Assembly: GCF_002196705.1 (NCBI RefSeq) | Contig: NZ_NADJ01000034.1 | Span: 1-64,000, forward strand | DNA from: Desulfosporosinus sp. FKB | Lineage (GTDB): Bacteria; Bacillota; Desulfitobacteriia; Desulfitobacteriales; Desulfitobacteriaceae | Reading direction: 5' to 3' | DNA length: 64,000 nucleotides | In this document: piece by piece, positions 40,921-55,524 of the stretch | How the letters are laid out: each line of letters begins with the position of its first letter | How positions within the stretch are numbered: the first letter of the stretch is position 1 | The notes under the pieces: generated by a model | What the model saw: only the letters and a program-made list of their open reading frames with translations | Databases searched by the model: none | Told to the model about the DNA's origin: nothing | Made by a program: the position numbers and the translations under genes

Positions 40921-41331
40921 TTAATCTTTTTGTTCGATTTCAGTAACACATTCGCATTTAATCTTTTCAACGAGGGATTGCAGGGCGTCAACGACATGTG
41001 GTCTGATGTCACCGCCAATCAGCACATACATTATGTCGTCGCCAAGTTCTAGCAGCCCTTCGTTAAGCCAAACCCTGACATGGAAGATGCCGTCCATTTT
41101 ATAGGTTTCGGCAATCGCTGCATCAACCTTTGCTGCATCATAACTAAAGATCATTCCCGTCACCATTGAACCATCGTCAATTCCATGGCGTACCTTGGCT
41201 TTGGGAGTTTGGCGCACAACGCCATTATGAACTAAAAACATTCCTTCCTGTGAAGACGCTCGATCAGCTTTTGCCTCTTTTAGCCATTCATCAATTGATG
41301 GCGAGAGCTTTTTAATTTTTCCTTTAATCAT
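40921..41331 (-). CDS. MoaE-like protein (molybdopterin synthase large-subunit family)
   Basis: A 136-residue cytoplasmic protein. GMFLVHNGVVRQTPKAKVRH and VDAAIAETYKMDGIFHVRVW with EGLLELGDDIMYVLIGGDIR follow the MoaE fold, whose normal role is sulfur transfer to precursor Z with MoaD. The usual HR motif and C-terminal WKKE-type lysine segment are not preserved (GGDIRP, then KCECVTEIE). It may be a divergent MoaE or a related protein with another function. No other moa gene is adjacent. The leftward gene has no operon partner in view. Confidence 0.65.
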   Translation of the reverse strand: MIKGKIKKLSPSIDEWLKEAKADRASSQEGMFLVHNGVVRQTPKAKVRHGIDDGSMVTGMIFSYDAAKVDAAIAETYKMDGIFHVRVWLNEGLLELGDDIMYVLIGGDIRPHVVDALQSLVEKIKCECVTEIEQKD

Positions 41332-41494
41332 AATTTAAAAACCCCTAATTTTTTCAGAAGATTAAATACCAATACATGCTATCAAAAATAGAGCAAAGTT
41401 TCAATCTATAGGATTCAAAACTTTCAGATCTAATGTCAAAGTCATACCTTTTTGCGTAATGTAATTTTAGTAAAATGATTAGGGAGGCATAATT

Positions 41495-42055
41495 ATGATT
41501 AAACCTACAATGCTTGCCCCCGATTTTTCAGCCGATGCCTATTTCCTAGGTAATAGAACTACAGTTACATTAAGCAGTTATAGAAAAGATTGGGTTGTTT
41601 TGTTCTTTTATTCCAGCGATTTTACCTTTGTTTGACCGACAGAGTTGGGAGCCGTGGCTGCCCATCACCACTTCTTTGAGCAATTAGGAGTTAAGGTGCT
41701 CGCAATTAGTACTGATAGTGTATTTTCTCATAAAGTTTTTGCTGAAGTTTCTCCGTCTGCCAGAACTATACAGTATCCATTACTCTCTGATAGAACCCAC
41801 CGCATCTCTCTTGAGTATGGAGTTCTGAGAGAAGAATTAGGATTTACATTTAGAGCAACATTCATTATAGCTCCTGGTGGGGAAGTGAAATATTCCTGTC
41901 TGTATCCCCCGGAAGTTGGGCGCAATGTATTAGAAATAATCCGAGTAATTCAGGGACTACAGTACGAGGAAGCGACTGGGTTAGGTGTTCAGGCCGGCTG
42001 GCGTCCAGGACAACAAGGGCTGAGGAAAGATTTTAACTTGGTAGGTAAAATATAG
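41495..42055 (+). CDS. prxU: selenocysteine-containing peroxiredoxin (in-frame TGA at codon 47)
   Basis: A 186-residue peroxiredoxin of the AhpC/Prx1 group, if the in-frame TGA at 41633-41635 is read as selenocysteine. The ATG at 41495 follows AGGGAGG. The TGA falls exactly at the peroxidatic position: SDFTFV-U-PTEL, where other family members have DFTFVCPTEL. Downstream landmarks continue in frame (LAISTDSVFSHKVFAE, TFRATFIIAPGGEV, GWRPG). The only cysteine is Cys135, and the usual C-terminal resolving Cys (VCPAGW) is replaced by VQAGW, so the enzyme probably depends on an external thiol. A SECIS-like hairpin follows the TGA. It would reduce peroxides. Selenoprotein peroxiredoxin PrxU is known from Eubacterium acidaminophilum. 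Confidence 0.88.
41647..41663 (+). promoter_or_regulatory. SECIS-like hairpin downstream of the TGA
   Basis: GGGAGCC and GGCTGCCC can form a stem with one bulged G and a very short apical loop, beginning 11 bases after the TGA. Bacterial SECIS elements lie within the coding region just 3' of the UGA, so the position is right; loop details should be modelled. Confidence 0.55.
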
Positions 42056-42105
42056 CACTTATCCTCATGCTCCCATTTTAAAGAGAATTTTTCCAATTTC
42101 CGTTA

Positions 42106-42148
42106 AAAGGCGTTCTCATTTCACTACGAGTGAAGCGAGAACGCCTTT
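42106..42148. terminator. terminator after the peroxiredoxin gene
   Basis: AAAGGCGTTCTC and GAGAACGCCTTT form a perfect 12-bp stem, identical in its arms to the hairpin at 40804-40845. It lies between convergent genes. Confidence 0.85.
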
Positions 42149-42233
42149 GGCTATTAATCCGCTTTGTTTTTTTAGAGTTAAGTTTTTAAGCACTCCCATT
42201 GATGCCCGTTTCTAATTTGACTTTAATGATTTC

Positions 42234-54978: not shown

Positions 54979-55524
54979 AATTCTTCCTCCTTTTTTCAGG
55001 AGAGGCGAGAAAACAAGTTAACATAAAAAAGTTCCTAAGCCAGAAGGAACTTTTTACATAACAGTTTTATCCCTCTGTCCTTGCCTGTAGCAGGTCTAGG
55101 CAGAACCATTTAAATTGTTTAAGATCCATAATAGGTGCAGCTCAAATGATACCGCCCAAAATGAGTATATCAGGTTATATTTCTCTTGACTATGTTAATT
55201 GGCTATTTTTTTTAAGGTTTCTCAACCCATTATGTTGATCCTAGTATATAATAGGGCTTATCACATTTAATTTGAAAAGAGAATCATCCATGTAAAGGGA
55301 AACTAATAATTTCAAAGCATTAATACATCGAAATTAATTTTGTGTTACTATAGATCATAGTGTTGCTGATTTGCTCTGTTCAAGAGCAGTAAATAATGTT
55401 AGCGAGTGAAAAATAACGTATAATAATTAAGTGCTTGTTAATAAAGATAAATGCACTGCATAAACTCGCTGTGAACTGCTTCGATAAGGTCTAATATAAC
55501 TAACATAGATGGAGGAAAACATTC
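54979..55524. other. 546-bp divergent gap between panB and pyc
   Basis: It contains the panB leader and the presumed promoters of panB and pyc. Apart from the leader hairpins, no gene or recognisable operator was found. Confidence 0.5.
55025..55140 (-). promoter_or_regulatory. structured leader of panB with terminator-like hairpin
   Basis: On the minus strand, a hairpin (AAAAAGTTCC with GGAACTTTTTT, 55025-55055) lies 47-77 bases before the panB start and ends in a T-run, so it could stop transcription early. Just upstream, CCTG-CTA-CAGG (about 55086-55096) and outer TGCCT/AGGCA pairings suggest a further fold. A pantothenate-linked RNA motif (pan) is known ahead of panB genes in Firmicutes; whether this is one is untested. 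Confidence 0.4.

Follow-up and report, generated by a model that had tools for sequence, protein, structure and literature searches.

A predicted selenocysteine peroxiredoxin of Desulfosporosinus without the motif proline

A peroxiredoxin-like reading frame in Desulfosporosinus sp. FKB carries a TGA at the place of its catalytic cysteine, which raises the question of whether this codon ends the gene or is read as selenocysteine (Sec) and, in the latter case, whether the product is simply the known selenoenzyme PrxU. Sec peroxiredoxins are treated as an established selenoprotein family in the relevant passages of four publications (PMC13188914, PMC9312934, PMC1794560, PMC1088965), and a passage of a fifth places PrxU in only Desulfotignum phosphitoxidans and D. 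autotrophicum among the sequenced sulfate reducers compared there (PMC4046663); a 2023 review states in one passage that peroxiredoxins are 'not selenoproteins' (PMC10298544). No paper on the Desulfosporosinus protein or its lineage was found in searches of an openly licensed library, the nearest of which to Pro loss dealt with the motif and its proline. Here, the gene is identified as very probably encoding a selenocysteine peroxiredoxin, on evidence drawn from sequence comparison. The kind of enzyme is known already from PrxU; this protein belongs to a distinct lineage, most members of which lack the motif proline.

The reading frame and its TGA

The window, i.e. the whole stretch of 64,000 nucleotides analysed, lies on contig C28 of a 5.1 Mb genome assembled in 40 contigs (G000). 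Its forward strand has a 186-codon frame (41495-42052) whose only internal stop is the TGA of codon 47 (41633-41635); with the TAG stop at 42053-42055 included, the gene spans 41495-42055. A likely ribosome-binding site, GGGAGG (41482-41487), is found 7 nt upstream of the ATG at 41495, and comparable sites precede the ATG in the related loci L023, L024 and L025, the first of which, from Desulfosporosinus acididurans M1, encodes a 99% identical peroxiredoxin. These features bear out the original prediction that the frame runs unshifted from an ATG with a ribosome site through the TGA, and its placing of the TGA at the peroxidatic cysteine is upheld by three alignments with solved peroxiredoxins, which place residue 47 opposite the Cys of DFTFVCPTE. 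Translation table 11 lists on this frame a 136-aa ORF from TTG 41645 to 42055, as had been foreseen, but the companion claim that annotation is bound to truncate or restart the gene went too far, since the homologue on a Cytobacillus spongiae plasmid (L111) is annotated as one 198-aa CDS across its TGA.

The TGA is widely conserved. When 398 genomes of the phylum were scanned at E<=1e-45 with a six-row profile (A1) carrying Cys in the Sec column, 52 matched; an in-frame TGA is present in every one of these matches, and one match has two. Thirty of the 52 loci were fetched; 27 of these were aligned with the window and five genome_contigs loci to give 33 rows, L033, L034 and L035 being left out as repeats of the genes of L023, the window and L027, respectively. 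Every one of the 33 rows, the window included, has TGA in the peroxidatic column. The genome_contigs loci L028-L032 (25-41% identity) stand outside this alignment, and of these L029-L031 carry TGA in a TxxU motif and L028 has Cys. Within the class, 28 of 82 genomes matched at E<=1e-25: the gene is present in 19, at 288-391 bits and with the TGA in 19/19, and the remaining matches, at half the score or lower (144 bits or less), are stop-free. The window's own genus is represented by 29 genomes, and it supplies 14 of the 19.

A UGA at the position of a redox-active Cys, kept in relatives, is a feature of bacterial selenoproteins and is found here. Sequencing error, which had been named as a possible source of the TGA, is excluded because independent genomes share the identical codon in proteins that diverge down to 43% identity. 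Furthermore, on either side of the TGA synonymous change runs at a higher rate than non-synonymous change in 9/9 pairwise comparisons; between the window and L024, for example, pS and pN are 0.67 and 0.13 upstream of the TGA and 0.72 and 0.09 downstream. The observation of a peroxiredoxin gene with an in-frame TGA is thereby confirmed as real.

The surroundings of the gene are less constant. In a comparison limited to ORFs of at least 90 aa, L023 has four upstream genes and no downstream gene in common with the window, L026 and L027 have only the peroxiredoxin, and L024 shows a single 49% match between ORFs in different places, that of the window being a sigma-54 activator. The flanking genes encode a MoaE-domain protein, a YjfB motility protein and this sigma-54 activator, and no partner gene can be named because the neighbours are scarcely common to the relatives. 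The MoaE-domain protein (40921-41331, minus strand), which adjoins the peroxiredoxin and is also present in L023, is a stand-alone protein with a modest domain match of 30.3 bits. On the 3' side, between convergent genes, lies a strong, near-perfect inverted repeat (42102-42151; -28.5 kcal/mol, z -7.2), which is perhaps the transcript end; no T-run terminator was called there in the terminator scan. Elsewhere in the window a pan motif RNA (RF01749, 56.9 bits) occupies 55071-55158 on the minus strand; this RNA usually precedes pantothenate genes.

Decoding of the UGA

The source genome holds each component named for bacterial selenoprotein synthesis, selA, selB, selC and selD. A tRNA-SeC(tca) was found at C30:218852-218945 (64.9 bits) near selB (C30:220029-221900, 378 bits), and selA (C35:162212-163588, 570.6 bits) adjoins selD (C35:161115-162041; L019 1501-2427, minus strand), which has an in-frame TGA of its own in KAGUGCK. 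Two more RF01852 matches above cut-off are tRNA-Ser according to ARAGORN. A second selD-family match above cut-off, at C4:101574-102479 (L020 1501-2406), is TGA-free. The absence of this machinery had been set down as grounds for abandoning the selenocysteine reading, which is instead supported. Moreover, of the 19 genomes of the class that carry the peroxiredoxin gene, 18 have selA above cut-off, the exception being G421, which is 85% complete, and G421 is the sole carrier of the gene among the 22 genomes of the class in which selA found no match. In Desulfosporosinus orientis, two tRNA-Sec are predicted according to a passage of a tRNA-Sec survey (PMC5330540).

A check for a SECIS signal downstream of the TGA had also been suggested, and a candidate SECIS-like hairpin lies at 41647-41662 (plus strand), with apical CGUG and its GU at 41654-41655. 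With the first base of the TGA numbered 1, its stem joins positions 15-20 to 25-30 and is capped by four bases, the central two of which are GU in 31/33 rows (L045 and L051 lack the GU loop); in the window itself the third pair, counted from the base of the stem, is a G-G mismatch, or else the stem has a bulge. The relevant passage of PMC1088965 describes the bacterial signal as a hairpin just after the UGA with a G in its small apical loop, and such a hairpin is present here. Across 32 distinct rows 87.0% of cells are paired, compared with 73.8% in shuffles, cells altered on both sides number 25 against 9.2, and the covariation score is 0.367 against 0.150, with 0/500 shuffles reaching the observed value in each case. 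The count of pairs altered on both sides (4, equalled by 113/500 shuffles) and that of further pair types (10, equalled by 33/500) are unremarkable, and with the register slid by -3 some 76.6% of cells are still paired. Among 145 codon offsets the true position nevertheless ranks first, at 87% against a mean of 40% and a next best of 76%.

Since the hairpin apex encodes Ala-Val-Ala, the protein sequence by itself imposes pairs 19-26 and 20-25, and the pairs at third codon positions provide the clean test. Codons were redrawn 2000 times from each gene's own usage in 48 rows (L066, L067 and L080 were left out), 46 of which have the GU loop. Pair 15-30 is formed in 39/48 rows where 18.8 are expected, pair 18-27 in 43/48 where 13.9 are expected and pair 21-24 in 46/48 where 17.1 are expected, each equalled in 0/2000 draws; pair 17-28 was equalled in 3/2000, and pair 16-29, equalled in 587/2000, is no better than resampling. 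On the other side, folding energies of the window sequence are unremarkable: the 61 nt that follow the TGA are no more stable than their shuffles (z 0.66), the minimum free energy over 50 nt favours a different fold, the bare hairpin has an energy z of -1.17, and a search of the stretch against Rfam gave one chance-level match. The predicted hairpin is thus supported by comparison between relatives, not by single-sequence energy.

Two readings of the locus would do without Sec. Were the TGA a real stop, the gene would be broken (a pseudogene) or would yield a shorter, active-site-free protein from TTG 41645, as the ORF that table 11 lists at 41645-42055 allows; this is most improbable given a TGA shared by 33/33 rows, purifying selection on both of its sides, a complete Sec machinery, a covarying hairpin and a Cytobacillus plasmid annotation that reads through the codon. 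Hardly less improbable is that the UGA is read by a near-cognate tRNA, or recoded in some other way, to give Cys, Trp or another residue. Some selenoproteins elsewhere are reported to carry Cys at UGA when selenium is limiting, and sequence alone is blind to the inserted residue, but no support for non-Sec read-through was found at this locus, and the tRNA-SeC(tca) near selB, the SECIS-like hairpin with its GU loop and the presence of selA in 18/19 class genomes with the gene all argue against it. Insertion of Sec is the preferred reading, in which SelB would bring Sec-tRNA(Sec) to UGA47 under the direction of the in-frame hairpin.

Fold and active site

Read with Cys at the TGA, the protein matches AhpC-TSA at 2.4e-34 and solved peroxiredoxins at best at 8.4e-38. 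An AlphaFold2 model built on a 32-row alignment has a pLDDT of 90.7 and, among PDB structures, resembles chains of Salmonella AhpC most closely (TM 0.93), in keeping with the thioredoxin-like Prx fold of the AhpC/Prx1 group; confidence in the model is lowest for the Sec loop (residues 41-50, mean pLDDT 64). In searches of its own genome, the protein is the sole AhpC/Prx1-type peroxiredoxin found: there are three AhpC-TSA matches, the other two being PrxQ-like and TlpA/ResA-like by our own reading, and a search with a Cys AhpC (E<=1e-30) matched the Sec peroxiredoxin only.

Two residues expected of such an enzyme are replaced; the original prediction mentions neither replacement, nor does it set the lineage apart from PrxU. 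The resolving Cys near the C-terminus (VCPAxW in AhpC) is Val165 in the window (codon 41987-41989), and this position holds Cys in 0/51 Sec rows and in 19/27 Cys rows; the other eight Cys rows, which we read as Prx6-type, carry Thr. Within the sampled rows, loss of the resolving Cys accompanies Sec. Meanwhile, the proline of the PxxxTxxC motif is Ser40 in the window (codon TCC, 41612-41614), with the T and the U of the motif in place. This proline is replaced by Ser, Ala or Gly in 25/27 tree rows of the clade to which the window belongs, L042 and L044 having Pro, and is kept in 20/20 rows of the PrxU clade and 27/27 Cys rows. Thr44 and Arg120 are invariant in the 32-row alignment, so the pocket seems otherwise intact.

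How serious the loss of the proline might be is indicated by three sources. A 2023 study terms the Prx motif 'strictly conserved' and needed for catalysis in the passage concerned, and excludes motif-less sequences as non-catalytic (PMC9925728), and a passage of a 2026 review describes PxxxTxxU as 'highly conserved' and crucial (PMC13188914). Some BCP- or AhpE-like proteins of Deinococcus are without the motif, two of them being thought perhaps inactive in the passage that treats them (PMC8945050), so motif loss alone has a precedent in peroxiredoxin-like proteins. Peroxidase activity of the Pro-less protein is not assured, since the motif Pro is missing and motif-less sequences were set aside in PMC9925728.

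With these reservations we infer selenium incorporation and peroxidase activity. By analogy with the family, Sec47, in a pocket with Thr44 and Arg120, would attack H2O2 or an organic hydroperoxide and become a selenenic acid. As there is no Cys at the resolving place, the selenenic acid would be reduced by an external thiol; our guess is that this is most likely thioredoxin, presumed here from the NCBIfam name of the PrxU model, or else a low-molecular-weight thiol. A Cys elsewhere in the chain could take over the resolving role and make this a hidden Sec/Cys two-residue enzyme, for which Cys135 would be the candidate in the window, L023, L025, L036 and L039, and a Cys-bearing N-terminal extension (PPCGYPN, GCQRP) in Desulforamulus and several PrxU members. 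This is improbable: Cys135 occurs in just those 5/33 rows, L024, whose protein is 81% identical to that of the window, has no Cys at all, and the window protein is without an N-terminal extension, a TAG lying directly upstream of its gene. Judged from the aligned rows, Cys135 is not a general resolver. We are confident, from sequence and modelled fold, in a one-Sec peroxiredoxin of the AhpC/Prx1 fold whose UGA47 would be decoded by SelB via the in-frame hairpin and which would be reduced by an outside thiol.

Position among known peroxiredoxins

The original prediction looked to alignment with the PrxU and AhpC families, and the alignment does show an AhpC-like protein with the predicted Sec at the peroxidatic Cys. 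The protein falls under both curated cut-offs, scoring 170.4 bits with PrxU (NF040737, cut-off 270) and 159 bits with AhpC (TIGR03137, cut-off 272). A tree was built of 74 rows, 47 Sec and 27 Cys, from which L066 and L067 (identical to L024 and L025), L043 and L080 (cut off) and L063 and L064 (other families) were left out. The window belongs to a clade of 27 rows (support 99/97), separate from a PrxU clade of 20 rows (99/99), and an AhpC-like group of 18 rows (97/95) stands beside both Sec clades, the fork among these branches being open. The deep branching order is unsure because several long branches were flagged. A single clade of all Sec rows was neither favoured nor rejected (p-AU 0.509). 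A single clade of all Pro-less rows was rejected (p-AU 0.026), which means that loss or regain of Pro happened repeatedly.

That the protein is simply the PrxU of Peptoclostridium acidaminophilum, with nothing weighty separating the two, is rather unlikely, and yet it draws on real similarities: Sec is at 47 in both when PrxU is counted from Met38, the resolving Cys is absent from both, the proteins are 42% identical, and constraining all Sec rows to one clade costs nothing (p-AU 0.509). Against it, six scanned members of the window clade reach 158-190 bits with the PrxU model, no more than one Cys AhpC (194), while four scanned PrxU-clade members reach 349-415, the two clades are separate and both starred in the tree (99/97 and 99/99), and Pro is lost in 25/27 rows of the window clade. 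A bolder reading has somewhat less than even odds: the clade may be a second Sec peroxiredoxin lineage, perhaps with a Cys-to-Sec change of its own, in which selenium freed both the resolving Cys and the motif Pro, and the hairpin (GC-N-GU-N-GC) could dictate the Ala-Val-Ala that follows Sec in both lineages (46/48 Sec rows, 0/27 Cys rows). If so, the protein would be a genuine 1-Sec peroxidase with an altered pocket, and an RNA signal would shape the protein sequence beside the active site.

Several other loci were noted in the course of these searches. A relative with 56% identity, a TGA and a GU-loop hairpin is encoded on the 690 kb plasmid NZ_CP089998.1 of Cytobacillus spongiae, a member of the Bacilli (L111 4001-4543); Sec use seems unusual in the Bacillaceae. 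A peroxiredoxin-like frame in a Chloroflexi MAG (L032 6001-6447) carries a TGA in YFUGICQ and a Cys three residues further on. Elsewhere in the phylum, AhpC-like frames are interrupted by TAA or TAG (G139:C1:1325018-1325455 and G101:C55:8061-8501) or by one TGA and one TAA (G066:C2:161791-162273), and all three are probably broken genes.

Sec peroxiredoxins gain a branch here in Desulfosporosinus and Desulforamulus, both of them Gram-positive sulfate reducers. The branch offers a natural test of the roles of the motif Pro and the resolving Cys, which may belong to sulfur and perhaps not to selenium chemistry, and so bears on the live question of why nature uses selenium. It may also exemplify a coding sequence moulded by a recoding signal.

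Three known systems invite comparison. The FTGGU Sec peroxiredoxins of Binatia and Deltaproteobacteria MAGs (L029 3033-3458, L030 1377-1814 and L031 6001-6399), BCP/PrxQ-like by our own reading, likewise have peroxidatic Sec in TxxU, but share 35-37% identity with the window protein across 137-147 residues and differ in the TxxU loop. AhpC (TIGR03137), the 2-Cys peroxiredoxin, shares with it the fold, the DFTFV-x-PTEL motif and the length, whereas the window protein replaces its peroxidatic Cys by Sec, its resolving Cys by Val and its motif Pro by Ser. PrxU of Peptoclostridium (Eubacterium) acidaminophilum, reportedly described by Sohling in 2001, is encoded on an 809 kb plasmid (L116) and has in common with the window protein an AhpC-like sequence, peroxidatic Sec at the corresponding residue, no Cys at the resolving position, and a GU-loop hairpin and AVA after Sec. 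By contrast, PrxU keeps Pro in PGDFTFVU and has both a Cys ten residues before Sec and a Cys-bearing N-terminal extension, and the two are set apart further by clade, by the PrxU cut-off and by an identity of 42%.
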